A stretch of 28,531 nt of DNA. Source: a virus. Within the stretch, counting starts at the first letter, position 1, and each line of letters begins with the position of its first letter. Below, one piece after another: positions 1,252 to 27,034 of the stretch. Under the pieces are notes generated by a model that was given only the letters and a program-made list of their open reading frames with translations, was not told the DNA's origin and ran no database searches. The position numbers and the translations under genes are program-made. The DNA lies in the IMG/VR virus record IMGVR_UViG_3300036817_000127, positions 1-28,531 of that record; one strand, written 5' to 3'.

Positions 1252-1263
1252 GCGTTTACACGC
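1252..1263 (+). promoter_or_regulatory. Dispersed motif GCGTTTACACGC, copy 1
   Basis: Exact GCGTTTACACGC in the 74-bp divergent gap between the reverse-strand gene (start 1213) and terminase (start 1288). This placement suits an operator acting on one or both genes. Other exact copies are at 5008, 12725 and, inverted, 16625. Confidence 0.65.
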
Positions 1264-1287
1264 TGTCGAGTTACCATCGCTGACAGT

Positions 1288-2724
1288 ATGGGTTCGCGTC
1301 CGACGTGGGGGATCGGCCCGCCGCCGCCCGGGGCTGCGGCGTGGCCCAGGCTGATGACGCGCCGTCACCCGCTCGCCCGGGGCACGTACGGCATCGAATG
1401 CGCGAACTGGGCCGAGGCGCAGCGGATGCACTCCAAGCCCTCGCCGGGTAACAGGTGGTGGCAGCGGCTGGTGCTCGCGCGGGCGCTTGAGCACGACGCG
1501 GCGGGGCGGCTGCTGTGGCCCGTGGTGATCATCAGCGGCCCGCGCCAGGTCGGCAAGAGCTGGCTGGAGCGGATGCTGTGCGCGTGGCGGATCAGGCAGG
1601 CGGCCCGGTTCGGCGGCGAGGAGCAGGCCCTCTTGCACGTCGCTCACAAGCTGATCGCGGCGCAGGAGGTGTGGCGCCCGGCGGCGCGGTGGTCGGCGGG
1701 GCTCGGGGACATGGTGCGGTGGGCGAACGGCGAGCAGATGATCGAGCGCCCGGACGGGTCGCGGTGGCTGCTCCAGGCCGCGAACGACGGGACCGGCGTC
1801 GCGTTCAGCCTTTCCATGGCGCTCATCGACGAGGGGTGGCGGATCGCCCGGTCGGTGTACGAGGAGGCGATCGAGCCGACGCTGGCCGAGGCGGAGTCGC
1901 CGCAGACGTACCTGATCTCCACGGCGGGCACGGCCGCGTCGGACCTCATGGCGACGTACCGCGCGAAGGGCGTCGAGCAGCTCGACAGCCCGCGCGACGT
2001 GCTTTTGATCGAGTGGAGCGCGCCGCCCGGCCCCGAGGTGGACATCGACGACGTGGCGGTGTGGCGGGCGTGCCAGCCGCACTGGGACGCCAAGCGCGAG
2101 GCGTGGATCGCGCGCAAGCGGCAGCAGGCCGGCGAGCGCGCGTTCCGGCAGCAGGCCCTCAACCAGTGGGTGCCGTCGCTGACCCCGCCGGCGCTGCCGC
2201 CGGGGACGTACGGGTCGGTCGTGACGCGGGCGGCGCCGGCGGGGAGCATCGCTTTCGGGGCGGAGGTCGCCGAGGACCACAGCAGGGCCGTGATCGTGGC
2301 GGTGGGCTCGAACGGCGTCGCGGAGGTCATCGAGGAGCGCGAGCAGGCCGGGTGGGTGACGGGGCGGCTCGCGGACCTCGCCGCCGAGCACGGCGTGGCC
2401 GCTGCGGTGGACGGGTCCGGCCCGGCGCGCGGCACCGCCGCCGAGCTCAAGCTCGCCGAGGGGCTGCCGTTCGTGGCGCTGAACGCGGGGGAGATGGCCT
2501 CGGCGTCGGGGCAGGTCTTCGACGCGCTGACCGCCCGCCCGCCCGCTTTGCTGCTGCGCGATCACCCTGCGTGGGAGGCCGCGGTCGACACCGCGCGGCG
2601 CCGCAAGGTGGGCGGGGCGTGGGCGTGGACCCGCGACGAGCTGACGCTGCCGGCGGTCACCGCCGCGTGGTGGGCGCTCGCGCACGCCCCCGAGGCCGCC
2701 GACGAGCCCGAGGTGTTCGCGTGA
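1288..2724 (+). CDS. Terminase large subunit
   Basis: The 478-residue packaging motor that drives DNA into the prohead by ATP hydrolysis and cuts the concatemer. The N-terminal ATPase shows Walker A GPRQVGKS at residues 84-91, Walker B ALIDE at 178-182 with the D-E pair at 181-182, and the coupling motif ISTAG at 210-214. The C-terminal half holds the RNase H-like nuclease, with acidic candidates near D330 (AEDHSR), D375 (AAVDGSG) and D450 (TRDEL). Length is a little short of the usual 500-580, mostly at the N-terminus. The ATG at 1288 has a weak ribosome binding site; an ATG 22 codons in (residue M23) is an alternative. It overlaps the next gene by a GTGA. Confidence 0.92.
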   Translation: MGSRPTWGIGPPPPGAAAWPRLMTRRHPLARGTYGIECANWAEAQRMHSKPSPGNRWWQRLVLARALEHDAAGRLLWPVVIISGPRQVGKSWLERMLCAWRIRQAARFGGEEQALLHVAHKLIAAQEVWRPAARWSAGLGDMVRWANGEQMIERPDGSRWLLQAANDGTGVAFSLSMALIDEGWRIARSVYEEAIEPTLAEAESPQTYLISTAGTAASDLMATYRAKGVEQLDSPRDVLLIEWSAPPGPEVDIDDVAVWRACQPHWDAKREAWIARKRQQAGERAFRQQALNQWVPSLTPPALPPGTYGSVVTRAAPAGSIAFGAEVAEDHSRAVIVAVGSNGVAEVIEEREQAGWVTGRLADLAAEHGVAAAVDGSGPARGTAAELKLAEGLPFVALNAGEMASASGQVFDALTARPPALLLRDHPAWEAAVDTARRRKVGGAWAWTRDELTLPAVTAAWWALAHAPEAADEPEVFA

Positions 2725-2990
2725 GCGCCGAGCCGTTCCGCCTCGACGGCGCCGCGAAGCCCGCCGGGAAGCCGCTGCGGTTCACGTTCGCCGGGGCGGA
2801 CTACGTGCTGCCGGCCATGGCCGCGTGGCCGGTCACCGCGATGTCCGACGCGCTGGCGGGGCGCCTCGCCGAGGCCCTCGGCGGGCTGCTGGGGGAGGAG
2901 GCCGCCGCGCGGCTCACCGACGACGGGCTGACCGTGGGCCACATGCTGGCCCTGTTCGAGCAGGCGGGGGGCGGGGACCGTGCAAGTTGA
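2721..2990 (+). CDS. Small tail-assembly-chaperone-like protein, paralogue of the 9023 gene
   Basis: An 89-residue protein started by a GTG that overlaps the terminase stop (GTGA). By eye it aligns along its length with the tail assembly chaperone encoded at 9023. Both have a core of FT-x-x-GADY followed by a Pro and WPV, then AGRLAEAL versus AGQLDEAL, LLG, and a final DGLTVGHMLALF versus AGLDVGEMTALF. Roughly two residues in five are identical over about 66 positions. Chaperones of this type bind the tape measure protein and are normally encoded only next to it, so a copy between terminase and portal is unexpected. It overlaps the portal start by 11 bases. The function of this copy is unknown. 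Confidence 0.8.
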   Translation: MSAEPFRLDGAAKPAGKPLRFTFAGADYVLPAMAAWPVTAMSDALAGRLAEALGGLLGEEAAARLTDDGLTVGHMLALFEQAGGGDRAS

Positions 2991-5007: not shown

Positions 5008-5019
5008 GCGTTTACACGC
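5008..5019 (+). promoter_or_regulatory. Dispersed motif GCGTTTACACGC, copy 2
   Basis: Exact copy, seven bases after the protease stop and at the head of the 43-bp tandem repeat array that precedes the capsid gene. The 207-bp gap is the longest within the structural operon, which makes a regulatory role likely. Confidence 0.65.
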
Positions 5020-5020
5020 C

Positions 5021-5180
5021 GCGACTGTGCGTGCCCCGCCGGCGGCCGTGACGCCCTTACGCCGGGTCCGTGCGTGCCCCGCCGCCGGCGACAACCTCAT
5101 CAGGCCGCGCCCGTGCGCGCCCCGCCGGCGGCCGTTCCCTTGTATGCGCCGCGCCTGTGCGTGCCCCGCCGGCGGCGCGA
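5021..5180. repeat. Four-copy ~43-bp tandem repeat upstream of the capsid gene
   Basis: Four direct repeats share the core GTGCGTGCCCCGCCGGCGG, starting at 5027, 5070, 5113 and 5157, a period of 43, 43 and 44 bp. Copies 1, 3 and 4 contain the perfect palindrome CCGCCGGCGG; copy 2 has it shifted to GCCGCCGGCG. Sequence between cores is more variable but keeps an upstream CGCCGCG-like stretch. The array fills most of the gap between protease and capsid. It could be protein-binding iterons, tandem promoter elements for high capsid expression, or RNA hairpins affecting translation or processing. No gene is supported here; the translations open through it are repetitive Arg/Pro/Ala. Confidence 0.8.
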
Positions 5181-5207
5181 TCTTCCGATCGCGCCCGGGG
5201 AGGGCAC

Positions 5208-6581
5208 ATGGCTGGATCAGTGAACGTCTACCTGAAGACGAAGATCGAGGAGCGCCAGGCGCAGGCGGCCGTCCTGGAGCAGCTCCAGAGCACCGCCGCC
5301 GGGGCGGCGCGGGACCTCACCGAGGACGAGCGCAAGACCTACGACGGCATCGTGGACCGGCTGAAGTTCCTCGACGCCGAGATCGGCCGGATCACCGCCG
5401 CCGAGTCCGGCGCCGCGAAGTTCGCCGAGGTGTACGGGGCGCACCAGGCCGCCCTCGCCCGCGCGGACGCGGACCGGGCCGCGCGCGAGGAACAGGCCGC
5501 GCGGCGCACCCCGGAGGAGCGCGCGGCGGTCAAGTCGTGGGGCACGCGGTTCACCGAGTCGGAAGAGTTCAAGTCGTACAACAAGCACGGCTCGTCGGGG
5601 TCGTTCACCATCACCGGGGACTTCCTCGGCGTGGAGGAGCGCCAGGCGTTCAGCTTCGGCCAGGGGCAGAACATCATGGCCTCCAACATGGAGGGGCTCG
5701 CGCCGATGGTCTGGGGCGGCCCGACCGAGGCCGCGTTCCGCACGCCGCTGTTCGACGTGATCGGCCGGGTGCCGACCACGATGGGCTCGGTCGAGTACAT
5801 GTACTGGGAGCCCGGCGACGAGGACAACATGGCCGCCGAGGTGCCCGAGGGCGAGATGAAGCCCGAGGCGGCCCTCGCCGGGGAGATCAAGGCCGTGCCG
5901 ATCAGCACCTACGCGTGGTGGAAGGGCATCACGCGCCAGGCGCTGGACGACATCCCGCAGATCCGCACCATCGTCGACTCGTTCCTGCGCCGGGGCGTCA
6001 TCCGCAAGATCAACTACGAGGCCGGCGCGCAGCTGACCACCGACCCGAACATCCCCGGGCTCGACGGGGGCGCGACCGAGCTGCTCGCCGTCATCCGGGC
6101 GGGCATCGCGACCGTCGACACCGCCGGGTTCGGCGTGAACGCGGTGCTGCTCAACCCGATGGACTGGGCCGCGATGGACATGGAGATGCTGCGGCTGACC
6201 GGGGCGGGCATGAACATCCAGAACGCGTTCTGGGGGCTGTCGCCCGTCGCGCTGCCGAACCTGCCGAGCGGCACCGCCTACGTCGGCGACTTCCGCGAGG
6301 CCGTGACGTTCTTCGACCGGCAGCAGACGCAGGTGCTGATCACCGACAGCCACGCCGAGTACTTCCTGCGCAACAAGATGGTCATCCTCGCCGAGGCGCG
6401 CGGCCGGGTGGCCGTCACCAACGCGGCGGCGGTCGTCAAGTGCACGGGCGAGGTGCCGCAGCTCGGCGTCGGGAACCCCGGCAACGGCGGCGGCGACGGC
6501 GGCGAGGGCGGCGAGACGTACGCCGCGCGGCGGCGCCGGGGCGTCCCGGCCCGCACCGTGAACCTCAGCCCGGGGGAGTAG
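5208..6581 (+). CDS. Major capsid protein, HK97 fold with N-terminal delta (scaffold) domain
   Basis: A 457-residue capsid protein. Residues 1 to about 110 are charged and helical (YLKTKIEERQAQAAVLEQLQ onward), typical of the delta domain that acts as internal scaffold and is removed by the protease. The HK97 core follows, with an E-loop region rich in acidic residues (YWEPGDEDNMAAEVPEGE) near 197-214, TRQALDD near 244, and VVLLNP-like NAVLLNPMDW near 315. The C-terminus carries a Gly-rich linker (about 425-440) and a basic tail. The ATG 5208 is chosen over upstream frame extensions because it follows GGGGAGGG and begins the plausible helical domain, while upstream codons run through the tandem repeat. 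Confidence 0.93.
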   Translation: MAGSVNVYLKTKIEERQAQAAVLEQLQSTAAGAARDLTEDERKTYDGIVDRLKFLDAEIGRITAAESGAAKFAEVYGAHQAALARADADRAAREEQAARRTPEERAAVKSWGTRFTESEEFKSYNKHGSSGSFTITGDFLGVEERQAFSFGQGQNIMASNMEGLAPMVWGGPTEAAFRTPLFDVIGRVPTTMGSVEYMYWEPGDEDNMAAEVPEGEMKPEAALAGEIKAVPISTYAWWKGITRQALDDIPQIRTIVDSFLRRGVIRKINYEAGAQLTTDPNIPGLDGGATELLAVIRAGIATVDTAGFGVNAVLLNPMDWAAMDMEMLRLTGAGMNIQNAFWGLSPVALPNLPSGTAYVGDFREAVTFFDRQQTQVLITDSHAEYFLRNKMVILAEARGRVAVTNAAAVVKCTGEVPQLGVGNPGNGGGDGGEGGETYAARRRRGVPARTVNLSPGE

Positions 6582-6584
6582 CGC

Positions 6585-6971
6585 GTGAGCGGCCTCGGCG
6601 GGCGCGACGCGGGCGCGGGGTGCGACCCCGCGCGCCCGCGCGTGCCCGCCGAGGAGCCGACGGTCGACGAGGTCCGCGAGTGGATCGGCGTGCCCCGCGT
6701 GGAGCTGCCCGATCACGTGCTCGCCGACGTCCTGGCGGGCGAGCGGCAGGTGCAGGAGGACTTCTGCGACACCGACCCCTACGACGCCGGGCTGCGGATG
6801 GCGATGTTCCGCCGCTGCGCGCGCGCGGCGGCGGCGCGGGGGCTGCCGCTGGGGACGCTGCCCGTGCAGATGACCGGCTACCCCGACGCGTACGGGGCGA
6901 TGGTCATACCGCGCCTGGACGCGGAGGTCGAGCGGTACGAGGCGGCGCGGCGGGTGATCGCCATTGCCTAG
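6585..6971 (+). CDS. Head-tail connector (adaptor) protein
   Basis: A 128-residue protein in the slot directly after the capsid gene, where HK97 gp6/SPP1 gp15-like adaptors are encoded. It is mostly helical: PTVDEVREWIGVP, then LADVLAGERQVQEDFCD, then LRMAMFRRCARAAAARGLP, ending in an Ala/Arg helix. The helical bundle with DEV-x-x-WIG is characteristic of these connectors, which dock onto the portal ring. The GTG 6585 lies three bases after the capsid stop and behind GGGGGAG, which supports the start. Identification rests on position plus fold-like pattern rather than a unique motif. Confidence 0.75.
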   Translation: MSGLGGRDAGAGCDPARPRVPAEEPTVDEVREWIGVPRVELPDHVLADVLAGERQVQEDFCDTDPYDAGLRMAMFRRCARAAAARGLPLGTLPVQMTGYPDAYGAMVIPRLDAEVERYEAARRVIAIA

Positions 6972-7251
6972 CTCGCGCTTCCAGGTCACCGACGCCAGGG
7001 CGCCCCGGCGGGCGTGCCGCGACGGCATCGCCGACATCGCCCGGGGCGTGATGACGGACGCGCGCGCCGGGACGCCCGTCGCGACCGGGCGGCTGCGGGG
7101 CGCGTGGCGGACCCGCACGAAGGCCGACGGCGACACCGAGGTCTTCAACGAGACCCCGTACGCGCGGTTCGTGGAGTACGGCACCCGCCACATGGCGCCC
7201 CGGGCGATGCTCGGGCGGGCCGTGGCGCGCGCGAGGGGCGCGAGCCTGTGA
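6964..7251 (+). CDS. HK97 gp10-like head-tail joining / tail completion protein
   Basis: A 95-residue protein with the HK97 gp10-like signature: TPVATGRLRGAW near residues 37-48, then VFNETPYARFVEYGTR near 60-75 and MAPRAML near 77-83. The 'TGxLR...N..PYA.FVE.GT' pattern is diagnostic for this neck protein family, which helps close the head-tail interface. The likely start is TTG 6964, overlapping the stop of the connector gene by eight bases. TTG starts are rare and no strong ribosome binding site is seen, so the start is moderately secure. It overlaps the next gene by GTGA. Confidence 0.85.
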   Translation: MPSSRFQVTDARAPRRACRDGIADIARGVMTDARAGTPVATGRLRGAWRTRTKADGDTEVFNETPYARFVEYGTRHMAPRAMLGRAVARARGASL

Positions 7252-8288
7252 CCGTCCCCGCCGAGCTGGCCGTGACCGCCGTCCTGCCGCCCGCGACGGC
7301 GGGCGAGCCCTACTCGGCGCGGCTGACCGCCTCCGGCGGCGTCCCCCCGTACACGTGGGAGGCCGAGGGGCTGCCGCCCGCGCTGGAGCTGGCCGGGGAC
7401 CGCATCTGGGGCACCGTCGCCGACTACGGGCTGCACCCCGTGACCGTGACCGTGACCGACGCCGTCCGGGCCACCGCGTTCGCCGGGCTGCTGATCACCG
7501 CCGCGCCCGACGTGCCGCTGCCGCCCGGCGCCGACCCGGCCCTCGCCTACCGGCGCACCGACGTGGAGTGGATCGTCTACCTCGCCGTGAAAGACCTCGG
7601 CGGCACCGTCGACTGGGCGCTGTGGGCCGAGGAGGGCGACCCCCGCGCGTGGATCACCACCAGCGGCATCCAGGTCGACGTGCGGGCCGCGACGAAGGCC
7701 CTGGCCGCCGACCGCGCCGACGAGGTGCGGCGGGTGGTGGCGGCGCTGCCGTGGGCGCCCGGGATCAACGGCGTGATCGCGGCCGTGGACGTGATCGGCG
7801 GCCCGTGGTGGGAGCCCGACCCCGACGGCCGCCCCCGGTACGTGGTCCGGTTCGCCGTGACCACCCACCCGCCCCGGCGGGCCGGCGCCCGCGTGCCCGC
7901 CGGGGCGGGCCACCCGGACCCGGTGCTGCGGTACGCGCGCCCCGCCGTCGAGCTGGCGGCCCGGGACGCGGTGCGCAACCTCGGCGGCACCGTGACGTGG
8001 TGCTTCGCCGCGACGGAAGGACAGCCGCGCGGCTGGCTGAGCGTGGTCGACGTCCAGGTGGACGTGCGCGCCAACTCCAAAAGCGCCGCGTGGCGCCGCG
8101 CCGACGCCTGCCGGCGCGCAATCAAGCTCATGCCGTGGGGGGCTCACCCGCACGGCGTGATCGCGCGGGTGGACGTGACCGACGGCCCGTTCTGGCTGCC
8201 GGACCCCCGCCCTCGCTACGTAGCCCGGTACGCCGTCTGGTGCCATCCGAGGCGGCCGGCGAACCTGCCCGATGTTGGAGGCGTTTAA
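7248..8288 (+). CDS. Tail-terminator-like protein with Ig-like domain and duplicated terminator domain
   Basis: A 346-residue protein in the tail-terminator slot (after gp10-like, before tail tube). Residues 10-86 look like a putative Ig (He_PIG) domain: PYSARLTASGGVPPYTWE, GLPPALEL, then HPVTVTVTD. Two homologous domains follow, about 98-210 and 226-336, matching at LGGTVDW/LGGTVTW, IQVDVRA/VQVDVRA, ADEVRR/ADACRR, LPW/MPW, INGVIAAVDV/PHGVIARVDV, GPWWEPDP/GPFWLPDP, and RPRYVVRFAV/RPRYVARYAV. Tail terminators normally have one such domain of about 130 residues and act as a hexameric ring that stops tube growth. Function is inferred from synteny and this repeated pattern. GTG 7248 overlaps the preceding stop. 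Confidence 0.7.
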   Translation: MTVPAELAVTAVLPPATAGEPYSARLTASGGVPPYTWEAEGLPPALELAGDRIWGTVADYGLHPVTVTVTDAVRATAFAGLLITAAPDVPLPPGADPALAYRRTDVEWIVYLAVKDLGGTVDWALWAEEGDPRAWITTSGIQVDVRAATKALAADRADEVRRVVAALPWAPGINGVIAAVDVIGGPWWEPDPDGRPRYVVRFAVTTHPPRRAGARVPAGAGHPDPVLRYARPAVELAARDAVRNLGGTVTWCFAATEGQPRGWLSVVDVQVDVRANSKSAAWRRADACRRAIKLMPWGAHPHGVIARVDVTDGPFWLPDPRPRYVARYAVWCHPRRPANLPDVGGV

Positions 8289-8290
8289 AC
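8281..8290. promoter_or_regulatory. Dispersed motif variant GCGTTTAAAC
   Basis: Variant of the GCGTTTACACGC motif. It contains the TAA stop of the preceding gene and lies between the GGAGG ribosome binding site and ATG 8292 of the tail tube gene. The core GTTTAAAC is a perfect palindrome. Confidence 0.45.
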
Positions 8291-8291
8291 A

Positions 8292-9026
8292 ATGGCAACT
8301 GGCGTACTCGACCCGGCCGAGGTGCAGGTAGGCACCGCCAACGGCCCCGGTATCTACCTCGCCCCGGCGAGCACCCCCGGCCCCGCCGACACCACCGAGG
8401 ACTGGGCGCCCCCGTGGTCCTGCCTCGGCTACCTGAGCGACGACGGCCCCACCGTGGGCCAGTCCACCGACTCGGCGGACATCACGCCGTGGCAGTCCGT
8501 CGTGCCGATCCGGTCGGTGATCACCTCGCGCGGCGTCACGGTGCAGTTCACCATGTGGCAGCTCAACGCCGAGACCATCGCCCTGTACTTCGACGGCGAC
8601 ATGCCGGTCGAGGACGAGGACGGGTCGATGGAGATGGACGTGCGCACCGACAGCGCGCAGCACGTCTACGCCGTGGGCATCGACACCCAGGACGCCGACC
8701 GGGTGATGCGCATCGTGTTCCCCCGCGCGTCGCTGACCGACGTGGGAGACATGCAGATCCAGCGCGGCGCGGCGATCCCGCTCGACGTGACCCTGTCGGC
8801 GCTCGACGACGGCGGCTCGCTGGCGAAGATCCGCATCGGGCCGTCGTCGCGAACGGGCGCGGGCGGCGGGCAGCAGGCGGCGAGCTTCGACGTGGTCGCC
8901 GAGGCCGTGGCCCGCCACCAGGAGGCGGACACCAAGGGCCAGGCCGGGCGCGTCCCGCGCGTGAGCCGGGCCGACGCGCAGGCACGGGCAGCGGCCCGCG
9001 CCGGCGGGACCGGCGGCGGACAGTGA
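8292..9026 (+). CDS. Major tail tube protein
   Basis: A 244-residue protein that polymerises into the hollow siphovirus tail tube. Around residues 57-75 it reads QSTDSADITPWQSVVPIRS, followed by a strand-rich region (RGVTVQFTMWQL, then ETIALYFDG), the typical loop and beta-sandwich pattern of actinophage tail tube proteins. Further strands run to about residue 190, and the C-terminal 45 residues are Ala/Gly/Arg-rich and probably disordered. A good GGAGG lies nine bases before the ATG. The next gene, the tail assembly chaperone, overlaps by GTGA, as expected in the order tube, chaperones, tape measure. Confidence 0.88.
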   Translation: MATGVLDPAEVQVGTANGPGIYLAPASTPGPADTTEDWAPPWSCLGYLSDDGPTVGQSTDSADITPWQSVVPIRSVITSRGVTVQFTMWQLNAETIALYFDGDMPVEDEDGSMEMDVRTDSAQHVYAVGIDTQDADRVMRIVFPRASLTDVGDMQIQRGAAIPLDVTLSALDDGGSLAKIRIGPSSRTGAGGGQQAASFDVVAEAVARHQEADTKGQAGRVPRVSRADAQARAAARAGGTGGGQ

Positions 9027-9400
9027 CGGCGCCGAGGGCGGCAGTGGCGAACGGGCACGGCCCGGTGAGGACGGCGGTCAAGTGGGATCTCGAAACGGCC
9101 GCAAGGGCCGCCGCTACCGAGGCGGACCTCGTCCCTTTCGCGTTCACCTACAAGGGCGCCGACTACACCGTCCCGCCGCAGCGCAAGTGGCCCGTTAAGG
9201 CCCTGGTGTCGGTGGCGGCCGGGCAGCTCGACGAGGCCCTGCCGGCGCTGCTGGGCAAGGACGCGTTCGCCGCGATGTGCGACGCCGGTCTGGACGTGGG
9301 GGAGATGACCGCCCTGTTCGACAAGCTCGCCGAGGCCGCCGGAATGGGCAACCTCCCAAATTCCGGGCCGCCGCCGCAGCGCGGTTCGACCCGGACGTAG
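9023..9400 (+). CDS. Tail assembly chaperone, zero-frame product (gpG-like)
   Basis: A 125-residue protein encoded directly before the tape measure gene, where the lambda G/GT-type chaperones lie. They coat the tape measure protein and recruit tube subunits. Residues 38-105 (FAFTYKGADY, RKWPVKAL, AGQLDEALPALLG, DVGEMTALFD) form the conserved core and match the paralogue at 2721. Near the end, codons CTC CCA AAT form a canonical slippery heptamer (9355-9361), so most ribosomes would end at the TAG at 9398-9400 and a fraction would shift back by one. GTG 9023 overlaps the tail tube stop. Confidence 0.88.
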   Translation: MTAPRAAVANGHGPVRTAVKWDLETAARAAATEADLVPFAFTYKGADYTVPPQRKWPVKALVSVAAGQLDEALPALLGKDAFAAMCDAGLDVGEMTALFDKLAEAAGMGNLPNSGPPPQRGSTRT

Positions 9401-9799: not shown

Positions 9800-9811
9800 G
9801 GACGGAACGCG

Positions 9812-12800
9812 ATGCCACCTCGTTACGGCCGCCTGGTCGTCGTCGCGACGGCCGACACCACGCAGCTGGAGGCGTCGGTGCGCAAGGCCGCGCTCTCGGG
9901 CGCGGAGACCACCCAGCAGACGTTCGGCCGCGCGTGGTCGGGGGTGACCTCGGCGGCGCAGCGCGCGGCGGCGGCGGTGTCGAGCGGGTTCAGCCGCGCC
10001 TGGTCCGGGGTGTCCTCGGCGGCCTCGCGCGCCGCGTCGGCGGTCACGTCCGGGTTCAGCCGCGCCGCGTCGGGGGTCTCGTCCGGGTTCAGCCGCGCGT
10101 TCGCCGGGGTGCAGACGGCGGCGGGCCGCGCCGCGTCGGCGGCGTCGTCGGTGTTCAGCCGCGCGTTCGGCGGGGCGGGCGCGGCGGTCAGCAACGGGCT
10201 CGGCCGCGCGTTCAGCGCCGTGCAGGCCGCCGCCGGGCGCGCCGGGTCGGCGGCGTCGTCGGTGTTCACCCGCGCGTTCGGGTCGGCGGGCGCGGCGGTG
10301 CAGTCCGGGCTCGGCCGCGCGTTCGAGGCCGTGCAGGGCGCGGCGGGCCGCGCCGGGGCGGCGGCCTCGTCGGCGTTCACCCGCGCCGGGGACGCCGGGT
10401 CGGCGATCACCAACGGGCTCGGCCGCGCCTACGCGTCGGTTACGCAGGCGGCCGGGCGCGCGGCGGCGAACGCGGGCGGCGCGTTCACCCGCGCGGCGGG
10501 CTCGGCCGGGTCGGCGATCCAGACCGGCCTGGGCAAGGCGTTCGAGGCGGTGTCGACGGCCGGGTCGCGGGCCGCCGCGACGGTCGGGTCCGGGTTCAGC
10601 CGGCTCACCGGCTCGATCAACGCCGCCGCCGGGTCCGGCAGCGGCGGCGGCGGGGGCGGGGGCGGGGGCGGCCTCGGCGGCATGCTGGGGGCGCTGAAGG
10701 CGATGCCGCTCGCGGGGAGCCTCGCGGCGGGCGGGATAGGGCTGGTCACCGGGTCGGTGCTGAAGGCCGGCATCTCCTACAACACGCTCATGCAGACCAG
10801 CCGCGCCGCGTTCACGACCATCCTCGGGTCGAGCGAGGCCGCCGACAAGATGCTGTCGGACCTGCAGAAGTTCGCGAGCACCAGCCCGTTCCCCCGGCAG
10901 GCGTTCATCGAGGCCACCCAGCAGATGGTGTCGTTCGGCATCGAGTCGAACAAGGTGATCCCGTACCTGAGCGCGATCCAGGACACCGTGGCGGCGACCG
11001 GCGGCAACGCCCAGACGCTGAGCGAGATCACGCTGGTGATGTCGCAGATCCAGGCGGCCGGGAAGATCACCGGCGTCGACCTCATGCAGTTCGCGCAGCG
11101 CGGGATCAACGCCGCCGACCTCATCGGGTCCGCCATGGGCAAGACCGGCACCCAGATCAAGGAGGAGATCACCGCCGGGTCGCTCGACGCCACGACCGCC
11201 CTCGACGCCCTCGCCAAGGGCATGGACACCAACTTCGGCGGCGCCGCCGACAACCTGAAGACGACCTGGTCCGGCACGGTCGACTCCATGAAGGGCGCGA
11301 TGCGCGACATGGGGTCGGCGCTGATCGCCCCGTTCATCGACCCCAAGGGCGGCGGGTACGCCGTGGAGTGGGGTCAGAAGCTCGCCAACGGGCTGCGGTC
11401 GGCGCTGCCCGTCGCCCAGGCGGTCATGACCGGGATAAGCCAGGTCATCCGCGTGGCCGTCGCCGTGATCAGCTTCCTGTTCAGCACCGCGTTCGCGGTC
11501 GCCCGGGGCATCTTCGAGGGCATCGCGCAGGCCCTGGCGCCGCTCGTCGCCAAGCTGCGCGAGGTGTGGGCCGAGCTGAGCGAACGGCTCACCCCGGCGA
11601 TGCAGCAGGCCGCCCCCGCCGTCAACGTCCTCGGCGTCGTGATGCGGGTGATGGGCAATATCGCGAAGTGGATCGCCGTCGCGGTGTTCAGCGTGATCGG
11701 GTTCGTGCTCCTCAACGTCGTGGTGCCGGCGCTGCGCATCCTCATCCTGACCATCGTCAACGTGATCACGTTCTTCGGGTCCCTCGGCGGCGCGGCGCGC
11801 GCCGTCACGGCGGCCGTCGCCGGCGCGTGGAACGCCGTGCTGGGGGCGACCCGCACGGCGTGGGCGGCGGTCACCGGGGCGGTCGCCGGGGCGTGGAACG
11901 CGGTGCGGTCGGCCACCGGGGCGGCTGCCGGGTGGGTCCGCAGCACGGTCACCGGGGCGTGGAACGCGCTGCTGTCCGCGACCACGGCCGTGTGGAACGC
12001 GATCCGGGGCGCGATCAGCGCCGTGTGGACCGCCATCCGCAACATCGCGTCGGGCGCCGCGAACGCCGTGCGGGGCGCCGTCACCGCCGCGTGGAACGCC
12101 GTGCAGGCGCTGACCGCCCGGGTGTGGAACGTCATCCTGTCCACGGTGAGCGCGGTCTGGGGCCGCATCCGCAACGTGACCGCCGGCGCGGCGGCGTGGG
12201 TGCAGCAGGCCGTCGCGAACGCGTGGAACTGGATCTCGGCGACCACGGCCCGGCTGTGGAACGCGATCTTCGGCGCGATCAGCGCCGCCTGGGGCCGCAT
12301 CCGCAGCCTGACCGGGCAGGCCGGCGCCTGGGTGCAGCAGGCCGTCACCAACGCGTGGAACGGCGTCCTCGGCATCACGGGCCGGATCTGGGGCGCGATC
12401 GGCAACACCGTGCGCGGCGCGTGGGAGAACATCAAGAACATCAGCCGCAACGCGTGGACGTGGATCTCGACCGGCATGGCGAACACGTGGAACGCGATCC
12501 GCGACAACGCCGGGCGGGCGTGGGGCGCCGTCGCGCAGGCCGTCGGCAACGCGTGGAACAAGGTCAAGTCGGCGGTCGGCGCCCCGGTGCGGTTCGTGGT
12601 CGACAAGATCGTCAACCCGCTGGTGAAGGGGATCAACGCCCTCGTTACCAAGATCGGGATTCCGGCGATCCCGTCGATCGCGCTGCCGGGCGGGTTCCGC
12701 GAGGGCGGCGAGGTCCCGCTCCAGGCGTTTACACGCCCTGCCGCGGCCGACCCGTGGTGGGGCCGGGTGCCCGGCGGGTACGGCGGCGGCGACACGCAGC

Positions 12801-15489: not shown

Positions 15490-16667
15490 GCCCCCCCGCG
15501 CTCGCCTCCCGCCCCCGCCCGGCGCCGCTGCCGGACCAGTGGACGTTCTGGGCGTCGACCGTGGTCGGGAACCAGAACCTCGGGCTGCTGCGCCCGCACG
15601 GCTTCTCGTGCTCGTCGCGGCTGTCCGCGTTCGGGTCCGGGCAGGTCACCCTTCCGATGGAGCCCGGCACCCTCGACGGCGCCCGCCTCACCAACCTGTG
15701 GTCCTACAAGATCTGGGCGTACTACGGGGCGAGGCCCTACTGGTGCGGCGTCCCGTCCGGCATCGCCGACGACGGCTCGAACTACGTGAGCCTCACCCTG
15801 ACGGAGCTGTCCGGCTACCTGAACAGGCGCGCGCTGGACGTGGCCGCCGGGCTGCGGTTCGACCAGGTCGAGCAGACGGAGATCGCGCGGCAGCTCGCCG
15901 CGCCCGTGGCGGACGTGGGCGTGGTCCTGGCGGTCAGCGCCGGGCCGGGGTTCCCCCGCGACCGCAGCTACGAGTACCTCGAAGGGGAGTCCCGGGGCGG
16001 CCTGCTCGCGAACCTGTCGCAGGTCATCAGCGGCCCGGAGTTCCGCACCGAGTACGACCGCGACCCCGCCGGGGCGCCCCGGTGCACGCTGCGGATCGCC
16101 TACCCGCGCGTCGGCGGGAACTCCTACCTGGTGCTGTCGGTGCCGGGCACCGCCACCGGCTACAGCGCCGCGTGGGACGCCGACAGCCTCCGCACCCGCA
16201 CGTTCGCCGTCGGGGACCTGCCCGAGGACGCGCCCGAGGGCGCCGTGCGGCCCGTGGTGGTCGTGGACCGCCCGCAGCCCGACCTGCCGCGCCTGGACGC
16301 GGTCGACTCGTGGGAGCAGACCTACCTGATATCGACCCTCACCGAGCGCGCCAACACGAACGCGACCATCTACGCCGAGCCGTCCCTCGACCTCGCCGCG
16401 ACCGCCACGCTCGCCAGCCCCGACCCCGGCACCTACCGGGTCGGCGACGACGTGACCATCCGGCTGGTGACGCCGCTGCTGGAGGACGGGCTGGACGTGC
16501 CCGGCCGCCTCACCCAGGTCGACGTCTCGGCGGGCGAGGGCACCGTCACGTGGACCGTCGCGGTCACCGTGCCGGCGCCGCGCGCCCGCCCGCCGCTCAC
16601 CGCCCGGCTGACCAGCGTCAACCAGCGTGTAAACGCGGTGTTCCGGCGCCGCATGGCCCCCGTGTAA
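15486..16667 (+). CDS. Tail protein, siphovirus ReqiPepy6 Gp37-like family
   Basis: A 393-residue beta-rich protein immediately after Dit, where the baseplate hub or tail-associated protein is encoded. Recognisable stretches are GSGQVTLPMEPGTLDGARLTN, given as GSGQVTLPM/GTLDGARLTN; WSYKIWAYYG; SLTLTELSGYLNRRAL; and YEYLEGESRGGLLANLSQVI. The pattern, with a final domain ending in VTWTVAVTVP, matches the Gp37-like tail family common in actinophages. ATG 15486 overlaps the Dit stop by ATGA. Two copies of the dispersed motif lie at its 3' end: one inside codons 380-384, the other containing its TAA stop. Confidence 0.78.
   Translation: MSPPALASRPRPAPLPDQWTFWASTVVGNQNLGLLRPHGFSCSSRLSAFGSGQVTLPMEPGTLDGARLTNLWSYKIWAYYGARPYWCGVPSGIADDGSNYVSLTLTELSGYLNRRALDVAAGLRFDQVEQTEIARQLAAPVADVGVVLAVSAGPGFPRDRSYEYLEGESRGGLLANLSQVISGPEFRTEYDRDPAGAPRCTLRIAYPRVGGNSYLVLSVPGTATGYSAAWDADSLRTRTFAVGDLPEDAPEGAVRPVVVVDRPQPDLPRLDAVDSWEQTYLISTLTERANTNATIYAEPSLDLAATATLASPDPGTYRVGDDVTIRLVTPLLEDGLDVPGRLTQVDVSAGEGTVTWTVAVTVPAPRARPPLTARLTSVNQRVNAVFRRRMAPV
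16625..16636 (-). promoter_or_regulatory. Dispersed motif, inverted exact copy 4
   Basis: Reads GCGTGTAAACGC on the forward strand, the exact reverse complement of GCGTTTACACGC. It lies near the 3' end of the Gp37-like gene and uses the uncommon codons CGT and GTA. A second, shorter copy follows 36 bp later. Confidence 0.65.
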
Positions 16668-16670
16668 ACG
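16661..16670 (-). promoter_or_regulatory. Dispersed motif core CGTGTAAACG, 24-bp gap upstream of a tail gene
   Basis: Ten-base core of the motif, inverted. It contains the TAA stop of the Gp37-like gene and lies 15 bases before ATG 16685. Together with 16625 it forms the only closely spaced pair. Confidence 0.6.
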
Positions 16671-19077: not shown

Positions 19078-19646
19078 CCACGCCCTCGTTCGAGACATGG
19101 GAGAACGTCGGCTCGATCCAGGGGCCGCAGGGCGACCCCGGCCCGCCGGGCGAGACCGGCCCGCAGGGCGCGACCGGGGCCGCCGGGCCGCCGGGCGAGA
19201 CCGGGCTGTCCGGCTCGCCGGGCGCGACGGGCCCGCAGGGGCCGCAGGGCCCCGCCGCGCCGCCCGCCTACGTGTTCTCCGTCGCCGGCACCGAGCCGGC
19301 CGGCACCGGCCCGGTGACGGTCAACGTGCCCGCCCCCGCCGCCACGTTCACCGTGGACACCGCCGGGACCTTCCTCGTCTGGGGCAGCCTCAGCACCGGG
19401 GTAGGCGGCGGGCTGGCCGGCGGGGTGCGGCTCGCGCTGCTCGTCGACGGCGCCGCCCACCGCGTGGCAAGCGCGATCGCCCAGGCCGGCTGGGCCGGGT
19501 TCCTCGACTGCACCGGCATGGCGCAGGTGACGCTCGCGGCCGGGAGCCACACCCTGCAAGCGCAGATCAGCAACCCCGCGCCCGGGGGCAGCTCGAACCT
19601 CAACGCCGTGAACTGGCGGGTCGGCGTGCTGCGGACCGGCCCGTGA
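19074..19646 (+). CDS. Collagen-like short tail fibre protein
   Basis: A 190-residue protein. Residues 16-60 are Gly-x-y collagen-like triplets ([16 protein letters not shown], then [13 protein letters not shown]), able to form a triple helix. A C-terminal domain of about 125 residues follows with alternating strands ([50 protein letters not shown]), like the small trimeric jelly-roll caps of collagen-like phage fibres. It probably forms a trimeric appendage at the tail tip with the preceding proteins. ATG 19074 overlaps the previous stop, and GGGAGACGAGCG provides the ribosome binding site. Confidence 0.8.
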
Positions 19647-19671
19647 TGGCATGCCAGGGAGGAGAAACCCA

Positions 19672-19782
19672 ATGACCGTCCCCGCGCACTCCGACGAGGA
19701 CTTCGACCCCGACCACCCCGACCTCCAGCACGAGGACGGGCAAGAGGCAAGCGAGCCCGGCGACATCATCGAGGAGGACTAG
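19672..19782 (+). CDS. 36-residue acidic peptide
   Basis: A short gene with a very strong ribosome binding site (GGGAGGAG, seven bases before ATG 19672) and a TAG at 19780-19782. The product is highly acidic: 14 of 36 residues are Asp or Glu, ending in DIIEED, with no hydrophobic segment and no recognised domain. The following amidase begins four bases after the stop, and the peptide's own final codons (GAG GAG GAC) supply the amidase ribosome binding site, so translation is probably coupled. Function unknown; a lysis or tail-related accessory peptide is possible. Confidence 0.7.
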   Translation: MTVPAHSDEDFDPDHPDLQHEDGQEASEPGDIIEED

Positions 19783-19786
19783 CCGG

Positions 19787-20836
19787 ATGGCACCGCCCAT
19801 CGTGACCCGCGCCCAGTGGGGCGCCGCGTTCACCATCCCCGGCGGCCGTCACGTCGCCCCGTCCGCGCGCCGCTGGTTCGTCGTGCACTGGCCCGGGTCC
19901 GCCGTCGGCAGCGACGAGCGGGCCGTGGTCCGCTCCATCGAGCGCAGCCACCGCAACGGGCAGGGGTGGGCCGCCGCCCCCGGCTACAACTACCTCGTGG
20001 GCCGGTCGGGGACCATCTACGAGGGCTGCGGGCGCGACGTCCGCGGAATCCACTCCCCGCCCCGCAACACCGACGGGTGGGGCGTCTGCGTGATGGTCGC
20101 CGTGGGGGAGACCCCGCCGCCGGCCGCCCTCGCCGCGACGCGCGCCCTCTACGAGTGGCTCAACACCGTCGCCGGGCGCACCCTCGGCATGAGCTGGCAC
20201 GGGCAGCACCACCCCACCGCGTGCGCCGGGCCCGCCCTCACCTCCTGGGTGCAGCGCGGCATGCCCGCCGCCGTCGCGCCCGTCCCGCCCGGCCCCGGCG
20301 GCTCGCCCGGGTTCCCCGGCCGCGTCCTGCGCCAGCCCCCGGTCATGCGCGGCGAGGACGTGCGGACGTGGCAGACACGGGTGAGGGCGCGCGGCTTCGC
20401 CGACGTCGCCGCCGACGGCGCCTACGGCCCGGTCAGCGAGGGCGCGTGCCGCGAGGTGCAGCGGATCGCCGGGCTGCCCGTCGACGGCCGCGTCGGGCCG
20501 AACACGTGGCCCGCCACCTGGGCGAGCAATGCCGGGCCGGGCGGCAACCCGTCCCCGCCGGCGCCCGGCACCCCGACGGGCATGGCCGAGTCGCCCATCG
20601 CGGTGATCGCCCAGGTGAACCTCGCCTGGGACACCGTGCCCGGCCCCGCCGCGCAGTTCACCGTGCAGGTGCAGCGCGGCACGACGGGCACGGCGAACGT
20701 CCGCACGTTCACCGTCGACGTCCCGTCCTCGCCCCGCACGAGCTTCGCCGTGCGCGACCTCGCCCCGCGCGAGGCGCACCGCTGGCGGGTGTCGCGCGGC
20801 GCCTGGTCGGACTGGCGCGAGTTCCGCACACCATGA
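19787..20836 (+). CDS. Endolysin-type N-acetylmuramoyl-L-alanine amidase (PGRP) with peptidoglycan-binding and FN3-like domains
   Basis: A 349-residue enzyme that cleaves the amide bond between muramic acid and the peptide stem. The PGRP/amidase-2 domain spans about residues 5-160: zinc-ligand candidates H34 (VVHWPG) and the WHGQHHPTAC segment (H138 or H142, C146), with YNYLVGRSGTIYEG near 67-80. A PG_binding_1-type domain follows at about 185-245 (GEDVRTWQTRVRARGF, then DGAYGPVSE). The last 80 residues (NLAWDTVPGPAAQFTVQV, then HRWRVSRG) resemble a fibronectin-III fold. No signal peptide is seen, so export would rely on a holin. The start follows GAGGAGGACTAGCCGG. Confidence 0.88.
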   Translation: MAPPIVTRAQWGAAFTIPGGRHVAPSARRWFVVHWPGSAVGSDERAVVRSIERSHRNGQGWAAAPGYNYLVGRSGTIYEGCGRDVRGIHSPPRNTDGWGVCVMVAVGETPPPAALAATRALYEWLNTVAGRTLGMSWHGQHHPTACAGPALTSWVQRGMPAAVAPVPPGPGGSPGFPGRVLRQPPVMRGEDVRTWQTRVRARGFADVAADGAYGPVSEGACREVQRIAGLPVDGRVGPNTWPATWASNAGPGGNPSPPAPGTPTGMAESPIAVIAQVNLAWDTVPGPAAQFTVQVQRGTTGTANVRTFTVDVPSSPRTSFAVRDLAPREAHRWRVSRGAWSDWREFRTP

Positions 20837-20848
20837 GGGGAGAAGACC

Positions 20849-21676
20849 ATGAACGTCGACACGCTGTGCACCGCGATGCCGGGGCTGTCCCGGCCGCTCG
20901 CGACCTCCTACCTGCCGCCGATGGAAGCCGCGATGCGCGAGTTCGGGATCACCAACGTTCACCGCTGCCGGATGTGGCTCGCGCAGGTGGGTCACGAGTC
21001 GGTGAGCCTGCGCTACTTCGAGGAGATCGCGAGCGGGCAGGCGTACGAGGGGCGCCTCGACCTCGGCAACACCCAGCCCGGCGACGGGAAGCGGTTCAAG
21101 GGGCGCGGCCCCATCCAGCTCACCGGCCGCGCCAACTACACCGCCGTCGGCAAGGCCCTCGGGCTCGACCTCGTCGGCAACCCCGCCTTGGCCGCGCAGC
21201 CGCAGCACGCCTTTCGCGTCTCGGCCTGGTGGTGGAAGAACCACGGCCTCAACGAGATCAGCGACAAAGACGACGTGAGCGCCGCGACCCGCCGCATAAA
21301 CGGCGGCCTCAACGGCCTCGCCGACCGGACCGCGCGGTACAACAGGATCAAGCCGCTGGGGAACGCGGTCCTCGTCGGCGCCGGCGCCGCCCCCGCCCCG
21401 CCCAAGCCGCCGCCCGGCGGCGGCACCGTCCCGCCGCTGCACGTCGACTACTTCTCCACCGCGCACAACGCCCGGGTGGCGGACGTGCGGACATGGCAGG
21501 CGCAGATGCGCGCCCGTGGCTGGAAGGCCGGCGGGGCGCCGCTCGCCGCCGACGGCATCTTCGGCCCCAAGTCGGACGAGGTGTGCCGGGCGTTCCAGCG
21601 CGAGAAGGGGCTCGGCGCCGACGGGAAGGTCGGCCCCAAAACCTGGGGCGCCGCGTGGACGGCGGCGGTCACGTGA
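20849..21676 (+). CDS. GH19-type lysozyme/chitinase-like endolysin with peptidoglycan-binding domain
   Basis: A 275-residue enzyme expected to cleave glycan strands. The GH19 lysozyme-like domain covers about residues 1-170: AQVGHES with the catalytic-acid candidate E50, YEGR at 66-69, and GKRFKGRGPIQLTGRANY near 80-97, diagnostic for this family. A Pro/Gly linker (183-192) leads to a PG_binding_1 domain (about 205-272) that is clearly paralogous to that of the amidase: ADVRTWQAQMRARGW versus EDVRTWQTRVRARGF. ATG 20849 follows GAGGGGAGAAGACC. Together with the upstream amidase it makes a two-enzyme lysis pair, an amidase plus a muramidase-like enzyme, as is common in actinophages. Confidence 0.9.
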   Translation: MNVDTLCTAMPGLSRPLATSYLPPMEAAMREFGITNVHRCRMWLAQVGHESVSLRYFEEIASGQAYEGRLDLGNTQPGDGKRFKGRGPIQLTGRANYTAVGKALGLDLVGNPALAAQPQHAFRVSAWWWKNHGLNEISDKDDVSAATRRINGGLNGLADRTARYNRIKPLGNAVLVGAGAAPAPPKPPPGGGTVPPLHVDYFSTAHNARVADVRTWQAQMRARGWKAGGAPLAADGIFGPKSDEVCRAFQREKGLGADGKVGPKTWGAAWTAAVT

Positions 21677-22775: not shown

Positions 22776-24428
22776 TCAGGCCGCGCCCCTGAGCAAGTGA
22801 GCGAGTTCCGCCGGCGGCTTCGCCGCATCGCGCCACACCATCTCCACCAGCCGGGGGTCAAACTTCCCCCGGCCGCCCGGCGGAACCTTGTGGATGACCA
22901 CGCGCTCGACCAGCGCCCTGAGCACGTTAGTCTGCCTCGCCAGCACCAGGCTTCCCCACACCTCGTCGGCTGGCTTGCCCGTCCGGAACTCCTTTAGCGG
23001 GTCATCCGTGGGGGCCGGCGTCCGCAGCGCCGCCTCGGCCTCGTTCAGCTTGTCCCGCAGCTTTCGCAGGTCCGCCGTCGCCTGGGTGTCATCGATCAGC
23101 CCCTCGGTGTGCATGGCGTTCTTCGCCGCGATCAGCTTCCGAATCCGGCGGATCTCCGCCCGCCAATGAGCCGCGTCGGCGGTCGCGATCGGCGGCGCCG
23201 GCCTGAGCAGGCCGGCCACGTCCGGCATCGACAGCCGCATGATCACCGCCTCGGTGATGGTCTCGTCGGCCCGGTGAATCGCCCGCGTGACGTGCCCGGA
23301 CGGGTAGCACGCGTAACGCGGCTCGCGCCCGCTCTTAGGCCCCGTCTTCCCACCGGACATCGCCTTACCGCACTCGCCGCACACCGCGACGCCCGACAGC
23401 AGGTAGGAACGCGGCGTCGGCTGCGGGCCGCGCCGGCGCCGCTCTGCCGGGGACAGCCTCGCGACCATCGCCGTCCACCGCTCCACGGTAACGATCGGTT
23501 CCCACGCCTCCGATTTCACCAGGGGCTGGTTCGCGCCGCCGTGGTGGTCGAGCCCGGCCACCGACGGTTTAGTGAGCGCGCCCTTGAGCGTGGTCTGTGT
23601 CCACTGCCCGCCCCGCCTGGTTGGCACGCCCGCGTCGATCAGCCCCTGGGTCACCACCGACAGCTTTAGGCCCCGGTCGAGGATGTTCACGTACGCGTCG
23701 AGGATCACCTCGGCCTCGGCGGGCTCATGCAGCAGCCGCTTCTTCCCGACCTCCTTGGGAGCGTTCGGGTCGTAACGGAACCCGTACCCGGCGCCGCCGC
23801 CCCGGTAGGACTTGCCGTGCAGCCGCGTGTGGTACCGCGCGACCTTCGACGCCGTCGACCGGCTCAAGTTGTTAGCGAACGCCACCAGGACGCGCGTCAT
23901 GGTTATCCCGTCGCTGGTCGTGAGATTGACCTGCCCGGGGGTCAGCGACTGGAAGATCGCGCCGCTTTGCTCGGCTGCGTCGATGCAGTCTTCGAGGTCG
24001 CGCGGGTCGCGCGCGATCCGGTCGAGGTCCTCGGCGAGCATGGCGTGAATGGTGCCCGCGTGCAGTTCCGCGATGATCCGCTGGAACTCGGGCCGCAGCA
24101 CCCGCCACCCCGTGACCACCGTGCCGTCGGTCAGCGTGAACGAGATCTTGCGCCGTTTAAACGCGCTGGCCGGCTTCGGCTTGTCGCCGTCCATGTCATT
24201 CTCGATCCGCACGCCGTCGGCCGGGACGATGTACCCGAGCCGCTTGGCGAGCGCGCGGAGCAGCTCGACGCGGCCCGTCATCTGCTCTTTGCTGTCCATG
24301 TCCGACAGCCGCAGGTACAGCACGCAGATCACCGCCGTGCCGGGCGCCCGCCACCCCGGGACCGGCCGCGCGCGCGACGTGACTTGCCCGGTGTCCTCGT
24401 CGTACTCGATCATGTGCTTAACAGCCAT
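22776..24428 (-). CDS. int: Large serine recombinase (phage integrase)
   Basis: A 550-residue enzyme that integrates phage DNA at a host attB by serine-mediated strand exchange. The catalytic motif YLRLS places the nucleophile at S42. EDLDRIARDPRDLEDCID at about 133-150 completes the resolvase fold. A recombinase domain follows from about residue 205, with YRGGGAGYGFRYD and VPTRRGGQWTQTTL. The zinc ribbon has C350, C353, C374 and probably H379. A charged coiled-coil-like stretch lies near 420-470, then a C-terminal segment. The N-terminal 35 residues before the catalytic strand are longer than in many relatives. ATG 24428 follows GAAGGGGGA. The motif CGTTTAAACG lies in codons 89-91. Confidence 0.95.
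   Translation of the reverse strand: MAVKHMIEYDEDTGQVTSRARPVPGWRAPGTAVICVLYLRLSDMDSKEQMTGRVELLRALAKRLGYIVPADGVRIENDMDGDKPKPASAFKRRKISFTLTDGTVVTGWRVLRPEFQRIIAELHAGTIHAMLAEDLDRIARDPRDLEDCIDAAEQSGAIFQSLTPGQVNLTTSDGITMTRVLVAFANNLSRSTASKVARYHTRLHGKSYRGGGAGYGFRYDPNAPKEVGKKRLLHEPAEAEVILDAYVNILDRGLKLSVVTQGLIDAGVPTRRGGQWTQTTLKGALTKPSVAGLDHHGGANQPLVKSEAWEPIVTVERWTAMVARLSPAERRRRGPQPTPRSYLLSGVAVCGECGKAMSGGKTGPKSGREPRYACYPSGHVTRAIHRADETITEAVIMRLSMPDVAGLLRPAPPIATADAAHWRAEIRRIRKLIAAKNAMHTEGLIDDTQATADLRKLRDKLNEAEAALRTPAPTDDPLKEFRTGKPADEVWGSLVLARQTNVLRALVERVVIHKVPPGGRGKFDPRLVEMVWRDAAKPPAELAHLLRGAA
24154..24163. promoter_or_regulatory. Dispersed motif palindromic variant CGTTTAAACG inside integrase gene
   Basis: A perfectly palindromic variant of the motif core. 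In the integrase frame it produces TTT AAA (F90-K91), codons that are rare in this window. Confidence 0.4.
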
Positions 24429-24536: not shown

Positions 24537-24562
24537 CGGCATTTCCCGCATGTTGGGCGGGG

Positions 24563-24591: not shown

Positions 24592-24620
24592 CCCGTCACA
24601 CCCGGTGAACATTCCCGGGG

Positions 24621-24729: not shown

Positions 24730-24737
24730 GACCGGCC

Positions 24738-25837: not shown

Positions 25838-25847
25838 CCGGGGGCGG

Positions 25848-25887
25848 GGGGCGGGCGATCGCAGTCCCCCTGCGCGGCGCCCGCCCC
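25848..25887 (+). terminator. 10-bp hairpin between exonuclease and RecT-like gene
   Basis: Perfect arms GGGGCGGGCG (25848-25857) and CGCCCGCCCC (25878-25887) with a 20-base loop, ten bases after the exonuclease stop. It may be a partial terminator or an mRNA-stability hairpin separating expression of the two recombination proteins. The rest of the 119-bp gap before 25957 shows no gene. Confidence 0.5.
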
Positions 25888-25956
25888 TCTGTGTCATCAG
25901 CGCCTCAATCACCGCATAGGCAACCACCTCCGCCACGGAGAGAGGAGACCGTTAAA

Positions 25957-26025
25957 GTGACGCCGATCACGCTAGCAGCCCGTAGCAGGTCCCGCACGGG
26001 AAGCGAGCGACGACATGCCGGGTGA
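25957..26025 (+). CDS. 22-codon leader ORF overlapping the RecT-like start
   Basis: GTG 25957 follows a very strong AGAGGAG (nine-base spacing) and reads 22 codons to a TGA at 26023-26025. The product is basic, with the ending SERRHAG. The RecT-like ATG at 26015 lies inside it in another frame and has no good ribosome binding site of its own. It is best seen as a translational-coupling leader. A second possibility is that the strong site serves the RecT-like gene through an unrecognised start. Confidence 0.45.
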   Translation: MTPITLAARSRSRTGSERRHAG

Positions 26026-27034
26026 GGTCAGCTTCCGCGACTGGTACGCGGAAGCCGAGGCCGCCGCCCACGTCGCGACGCAGCTCGCCGACACCCCGTT
26101 CGTGCCCGACACGCTGAAGAGATGGCGGGCCGTCAACGGGCGCAAGATGCTCGACCTCGACGGCACCGTCGCCGTGGTCACCGCCGCGCTGCTGACCGGG
26201 CAGGAACTCGGCTTCGGCCCCATGGCGTCGCTCCGCTCGATCGATATCATCCGGGGCACCCCCGCGCTGCGCGCCATGGCGCTGCGGGCGCTCGTGCAGA
26301 AGTTCGGCCACGACATCACCGTGGTCGAGTCGACCGCCACCCGCGCCGTGGTGCGCGGCCGGCGCTCCAACGGCGAGACGCAGCAGTCCGTGTGGACGCT
26401 CGACCGGGCGCGCGCCCTCGGCGTCTACCCCGGCCCCGCCGACGGGCAGTGGCAGCGCCAGCCCCAGTCCATGCTCGTCGCGCGGGCGTCGGCTGAGATC
26501 TCCCGCTGGATCGCTTCCGACGCGATCCTCGGCATGCCCTACGCCGCCGAGGAACTCGCCGACGAGCCCAACGAGGTCTACCCCGGCGAGGCCCCCGCCG
26601 AGGCCCCGGCCGCGAAGCCGCCGCCGAAGACCGCCCGCCGCAAGACCCGTGTAAACGGCGCCGCGGACAAGCCCCCGCTCGCGCTCGCCCCGCCGCCGCC
26701 GCCCGCGCCCGAGCCCGTCGCCGGCACCCACGGGCCGCCCGCCCCGCCCGTCGACGCCGAGGGCGAGCCCGTCCCCTACCCCGCCGAGCCCGCCGCCGAG
26801 GACGATCCGCCGCCGACCGTGTCGCGTAAGCAGCTCATCTCGATTCACGCCCAGCTCCGCGAGGCCGGCATCACCGACGCCGCCGAGGGGCTGCGCCGCA
26901 TCGGCGAGTGGATCGGCCGCCCCATCACCACCACCAAAGACCTCACCGTCGCCGACGCGAGCACCGTGCTGGACCGCCTCGCCGACGCCGCCGCCGAACA
27001 CGCACCCGAGGAGGCCCCCGATGCTGATCAATGA
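26015..27034 (+). CDS. RecT-like single-strand annealing protein
   Basis: A 339-residue protein. The N-terminal 185 residues show the RecT-type pattern: LLTGQELGFGPMASLRSIDII with I-RGTPAL after it at about 60-85, split here as LLTGQELGFGPM / IDIIRGTPAL; then FGHDITVVE at 97-105 and SMLVARASAEISRWIASD near 152-169, followed by YAAEEL. A Pro/Ala-rich linker covers about 190-267, then a small helical C-terminal domain (SRKQLISIHAQLREAGI, EGLRRIGEWIG) starts near 270. It would anneal strands made by the upstream exonuclease. ATG 26015 has no clear ribosome binding site. A copy of the dispersed motif sits in the linker codons. Confidence 0.75.
   Translation: MPGEVSFRDWYAEAEAAAHVATQLADTPFVPDTLKRWRAVNGRKMLDLDGTVAVVTAALLTGQELGFGPMASLRSIDIIRGTPALRAMALRALVQKFGHDITVVESTATRAVVRGRRSNGETQQSVWTLDRARALGVYPGPADGQWQRQPQSMLVARASAEISRWIASDAILGMPYAAEELADEPNEVYPGEAPAEAPAAKPPPKTARRKTRVNGAADKPPLALAPPPPPAPEPVAGTHGPPAPPVDAEGEPVPYPAEPAAEDDPPPTVSRKQLISIHAQLREAGITDAAEGLRRIGEWIGRPITTTKDLTVADASTVLDRLADAAAEHAPEEAPDADQ
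26648..26657 (-). promoter_or_regulatory. Dispersed motif core CGTGTAAACG inside RecT-like gene
   Basis: Inverted ten-base core of the motif in the RecT-like linker, read as CGT GTA AAC GGC. CGT and GTA are uncommon codons here, again suggesting DNA-level constraint. Confidence 0.55.

Follow-up and report, generated by a model that had tools for sequence, protein, structure and literature searches.

What function could a 10-bp motif serve that recurs throughout the late and recombination genes of a GC-rich phage, partly within coding sequence and at the cost of rare codons? The question is raised by a linear viral record of 28.5 kb, called the window here. Its GC content was measured at 74.0 %, close to the 73 % estimated beforehand. 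PHROG matches in the late half comprise the large terminase subunit (1288..2724, + strand, phrog_9, 1.6e-30), portal, protease, major capsid protein (5208..6581, +, phrog_10, 1.5e-35), major tail protein (8292..9026, +, phrog_117, 3e-37), tape measure and two endolysins. Further matches are an exonuclease, RecT, RusA and a serine integrase (22776..24413, − strand, phrog_95, 3e-60) that points to a temperate lifestyle. What the window contains is thus the late half and the recombination genes of a temperate siphophage, and its host is probably an actinobacterium, judged by weak relatives. Searching 50,697 phage records with capsid and terminase revealed no isolated phage close to the window, with at most 30 % identity among the best matches, and terminase or capsid patterns retrieved no prophage or host among 84,980 genomes.

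The motif in the window and its relatives

The consensus CGTTTAMACG is present in seven exact copies and one near copy. The initial annotation, made by reading the letters, had described a 12-bp form, which we located as GCGTTTACACGC at 1252, 5008 and 12725 (forward) and at 16625 (inverted); the inverted ten-base core CGTTTACACG lies at 16661 and 26648 as reported, and the two palindromic relatives are CGTTTAAACG at 24154 and, with one mismatch, CGTTTAAACA at 8282. The core 10-mer CGTTTACACG thereby occurs six times against 0.015 expected from a first-order Markov model. Allowing up to one mismatch to CGTTTAMACG, 16 strand-matches were counted, compared to a mean of 0.97 in dinucleotide shuffles, none of 100 of which reached 16. 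Codon-preserving shuffling, named beforehand as a test that could refute the idea, yielded a mean of 0.028 genic sites and a maximum of 1 in 1000 shuffles, as opposed to the four observed. The codons that the genic copies were said to force are indeed rare, each making up 1–8 % of its amino acid's codons: TTT 2.4 % of Phe, ACA 2.5 % of Thr, CGT 2.7 % of Arg, GTA 1.2 % of Val and AAA 8 % of Lys. Gene boundaries, in the window as in the relatives, were taken from a home-made codon model; four of the eight window sites fall no more than 40 bp from one (13 % expected, p=0.012). Among the asymmetric sites, three are oriented with transcription and three against it.

Presence in related phages, another check proposed at the outset, was likewise confirmed, with the motif found in four relatives. 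The largest, G001 (IMGVR_UViG_3300036792_000156, 43.3 kb), has a terminase 93 % identical to that of the window; the others are G002 (8.3 kb, terminase 84 %), G004 (13.2 kb, capsid 87 %) and G005 (5.0 kb, capsid 58 %). In G001 we found 18 exact sites, 13 of them dispersed and five at early promoters. Twelve of the 13 dispersed sites have the asymmetric form CGTTTACACG, eight oriented with transcription and four against, and nine of the 13 are no more than 40 bp away from a gene boundary (p=6e-5). Eight G001 sites are fully genic, compared to 0.17 after codon shuffling. One genic site of G001 (L013 1142) spends a TTA leucine codon, which represents 0.2 % of the Leu codons.

Following the window from left to right, the first CGTTTACACG site (1253..1262, +) is situated between a divergent gene (920-1213, −) and the large terminase, and is identical in G001 despite unrelated sequence just upstream. 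The second (5009..5018, +) lies 9 bp past the protease stop and about 190 bp ahead of the capsid ATG; the window, G001, G004 and G005 share it without a mismatch, the last of them despite strongly diverged flanks, and the capsid leader of G002 carries CGTTTAAACG in its place. The variant CGTTTAAACA (8282..8291, +) overlaps the TAA of the upstream gene and abuts the ATG of the major tail protein; G004 has the same variant, and the corresponding G001 junction carries GGTGTAAACG. Within the tape measure gene, the CGTTTACACG site at 12726..12735 (+), which brings in TTT and ACA codons, is conserved in G004. The minor tail site (16626..16635, −), lying within the end of its gene and read as CGT GTA AAC, is identical in G001. 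The adjacent site (16661..16670, −) holds the TAA stop of gene 15480-16667 just ahead of the next gene, and its counterpart in G001 is the palindromic CGTTTAAACG instead of the asymmetric form. Two copies, at 8282 and 16661, therefore include a TAA stop as initially described, with the genes ending at 8288 and 16667. The palindrome CGTTTAAACG within the serine integrase gene (24154..24163), which uses TTT and AAA codons, is not conserved in G001, and the CGTTTACACG site within recT (26648..26657, −) is intact there amid flanking indels. The remaining sites were gained or lost between the window and G001, and site-for-site conservation is modest, with 4 of 7 aligned sites identical against 30 % expected.

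Between the pre-capsid site and the capsid ATG (window 5019-5207), four copies of a repeat of about 20 bp resembling GTGCGTGCCCCGCCGGCGGC were observed. It also occurs in the leaders of G001 and G004, and different repeat units are found in those of G002 and G005; the capsid-leader repeats fold no better than shuffles (z -0.39).

Early promoters and a candidate repressor

The relatives supply the half of the genome that is missing from the window. At 37.2-40.5 kb, G001 encodes five leftward early transcription units, each headed by CGTTTAAACG and following the layout CGTTTAAACG - 13 bp - TATAATGTAAGTG(C/T)AGGGCGGAGGGGC. As the palindrome precedes TATAAT by exactly 13 bp in all five of these promoters, it overlies about −35 to −26. 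The same G001 units (L014 16880-20000, L015 4980-5420) share a near-identical promoter-to-RBS cassette of about 30 bp, as if it had been copied with each unit, and this operator cassette had no match in the 50,697 phage records.

The outermost palindrome (40412) is located between the first leftward early gene and a divergent gene (40511-40840) whose 109-aa product contains a single HTH_3 domain (Pfam HTH_3, 1.2e-10; PHROG transcriptional repressor). The AlphaFold model of this product is of low confidence (pLDDT 63) and displays one HTH domain, with a C-terminus that is modelled at low confidence. G002 encodes a homologue of this repressor (64 % over 74 aa) that has kept the recognition-helix segment GVSESA..YEQG, and beside it lie two operator-promoters with the same geometry as in G001. 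A divergent cI/cro-type arrangement of HTH repressor, operator and early operon is hence present in G001 (40352/40412/40511) and in G002, and it is a classical immunity-region layout. The neighbourhood suggests the HTH_3 protein as the putative binder of the motif; the product of another small HTH gene of G001 (36411-36635) is a rival candidate. The divergent immunity-switch region is absent from the window contig, and with it the repressor gene and the early operators.

The two forms of the motif are separated by location. In G001, the ratio of palindromic to asymmetric sites is 5:0 at the promoters vs 1:12 among the dispersed sites (p=0.0007), and no dispersed site has a good −10 element at the early-operator spacing, the best matching 4/6 positions.

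Probable operators, possible roadblocks and competing explanations

Since the motif overlies early promoters beside a repressor gene in the relatives, it is most likely a repressor landing site that silences the phage genome. We consider it probable that an immunity repressor encoded by the phage itself recognises the 10-bp motif, which would form operators on the one hand and stoperator-like dispersed sites on the other. A repressor of about 100 aa with a single HTH domain (HTH_3/Xre), encoded outside the window fragment, would bind the motif, probably as a dimer on the palindrome. At the CGTTTAAACG operators over the −35 region it would block initiation at several early promoters. It would also bind the second set of sites, CGTTTACACG, which differ by one base, lack a promoter and are spread through the late and recombination genes. 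Repressor bound at these dispersed sites would, in the lysogenic state, obstruct RNA polymerase leaking into the structural genes, and most of the roadblocks would stand where a key gene begins or shortly ahead of it. That the promoterless sites hinder elongation and thereby silence the late genes in the lysogen is an assumption we favour slightly over its opposite. The window phage should carry the same immunity region beyond the end of the contig.

The dispersed sites might instead act on initiation, as conventional operators belonging to numerous local late promoters, similar to phiC31 CIRs or BPs operators. Several sites do lie in the leaders of the terminase, capsid and tail genes, and ACAATA/TACAAT is found just upstream of the capsid-leader site in four relatives. 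Local late promoters may exist near some sites (terminase, capsid). As a general explanation we nevertheless regard this as rather unlikely, as a good −10-like element at the early-operator spacing is lacking at every dispersed site and as some sites are buried deep within the tape measure, recT and integrase genes or placed at stop codons.

A more distant relative, G003 (terminase 51 %), contains no CGTTTAMACG. Its 18.6 kb harbour 20 copies of a different dispersed quasi-palindrome, TGACTTAAGCCA, of the type TGAC(T/G/A)TAAG(C/T)CA and mostly one base off a palindrome such as TGACTTAAGTCA; at up to two mismatches, 24 matches compare to 0.44 in simulations. These sites are located just upstream of the terminase, 10 bp past the protease stop ahead of the capsid, and at other boundaries, with 9/20 within 40 bp of a gene boundary (p=0.002). 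If repressor specificity had been exchanged, a different motif would be expected at corresponding boundaries, as seen in G003, and we infer that its sites may serve the same role as the window motif. Related sites of the type TGACGTAAG occur in contigs L148 and L150, and no convincing dispersed quasi-palindrome was detected in other portal relatives (L125-L129 and others). On the reverse complement of the G003 contig L017, a perfect 14-bp palindrome, TGGGAACGTTCCCA, is also present in four copies (3548, 8587, 13626, 18204) at spacings of 5039, 5039 and 4578 bp.

The binder could also be a regulator or nucleoid protein of the host, for instance in xenogeneic silencing or as a replication or repair factor, the phage being merely the carrier of the motif. 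A viral-contig scan for paired sites returned 102 stretches, most of them apparently unrelated to the window. Dispersed copies of the 10-mer also occur in a group of phages unrelated to the window, which would fit a host factor. Contigs of this group (L026, L029, L038, L039, L056, L058, L065, L084, L106, L111, L121 and L122), several of which contain mostly the asymmetric form, encode SprT-like and MoxR/VWA proteins and an 80-aa LexA-like DNA-binding protein. As the 10-mer is thus shared by phages of another kind that encode a LexA-like HTH protein, the identity of the motif alone cannot name its binder. Against a host factor stand the 30 other portal relatives, which in 321 kb of GC-rich sequence contain zero copies against 0.63 expected, the joint occurrence of motif and HTH_3 gene in G001 and G002, and the presence of another motif at the same places in G003, which together make this explanation improbable. 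Contig L100 (IMGVR_UViG_3300025141_000488), with 22 copies, was discarded as an operator case, its copies being largely the hairpin of twister ribozymes: fourteen Twister-P5 ribozymes score above the Rfam gathering threshold within 6 kb (5672-11422), and their hairpins contain CGTTTAAACG, CGTTTACACG or CGTGTAAACG.

It appears very improbable that the motif is a promoter element, such as an activator box or a −35 box of a special kind, or a site for segregation, packaging or chi-like recombination. It does sit at the −35 position of the early promoters, but is unlike any −35 box and perfectly palindromic at that position, and most copies lack a −10; an early promoter adjoining a divergent repressor gene is moreover the classical operator position. 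The occurrence of both orientations speaks against a chi-like site, and no partition gene was found among the G001 genes scanned. A chance or compositional artefact has next to no probability, being excluded by both kinds of shuffles with nothing found in its favour.

Returning to the repressor-binding sites, we tentatively propose, at somewhat less than even confidence, that a single-HTH repressor of about 100 aa combines promoter repression with a genome-wide elongation block; that one palindrome-breaking base separates the CGTTTAAACG operator from the CGTTTACACG stoperator; and that relatives have swapped the whole site set for TGACTTAAGCCA, giving heteroimmune versions of a system that arose independently of L5. 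To our knowledge, the only repressors for which dispersed stoperators have been well described are the two-domain monomers of the L5 type. If the proposal is true, genome-wide roadblock silencing evolved more than once, and these phages offer a natural test of how site symmetry separates the control of initiation from that of elongation.

Comparison with known repressor systems

The initial annotation had likened the sites to L5 stoperators, and this reading is supported as the best one. It is favoured by the dispersed sites in close relatives and by the palindromes over early promoters beside a divergent HTH_3 gene. In detail the system departs from L5 in the quasi-palindromic site, the mixed orientation and the short single-HTH candidate, which is unrelated in sequence to the L5-like repressor of R4. 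Temperate actinophages of the L5/Bxb1 type (Cluster A) have 20-30 repressor sites across the genome, at gene boundaries and in some cases over the early promoter, and their motif changes between related phages (PMC6550527, PMC9283540). The dispersed copy number is similar here, with 18 exact sites in G001, five of them at promoters, and seven in the window fragment. The L5 site, however, comprises 13-14 bp without dyad symmetry, operators included, whereas the present one has 10 bp and is a perfect palindrome at the operators and one base off in dispersed form. L5 sites are oriented with transcription and those described here point both ways; the L5 repressor is a 183-aa monomer with HTH and Stoperator domains, in contrast to a candidate of 109 aa with HTH_3 only; and L5 has no divergent cI/cro arrangement, whereas this candidate is divergent from the early genes. 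Membership in the L5 type was rejected on site symmetry at the operators, orientation and repressor family alike. Streptomyces phage R4 is an actinophage with an integrase and intergenic stoperators (PMC10276819). Its repressor is annotated as L5 gp71-like and its enriched repeat, CACTTGCACA, is not palindromic; the HTH_3 candidate has no similarity to this repressor, and the L5/R4 repressor family was set aside.

An enrichment scan of phiC31 returned the palindrome TACTCACGTGAGTA 15 times, which we take to be its conserved inverted repeats (CIRs). phiC31 has several dispersed palindromic repressor sites (PMC4557955), as proposed for the phages studied here. It differs in its large repressor (CDS 19274-21325), encoded downstream of the structural genes on the same strand. 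An identity of the motif with the CIRs was dismissed, as phiC31 lacks CGTTTAMACG, has its own repeat ACTCACGTGAGT and possesses a c gene of 2,052 bases vs the 109-aa candidate. In BPs (Cluster G), a repressor of about 100 aa is divergent from the early genes and 12-bp palindromic sites occur at several loci (PMC4557955), resembling the present system with its candidate repressor. BPs differs in having only about six operators, mostly promoter-associated and with paired half sites, and no dispersed genic sites. Judged from sequence, the system may work like that of L5 or phiC31, yet would not be a member of the L5 type.
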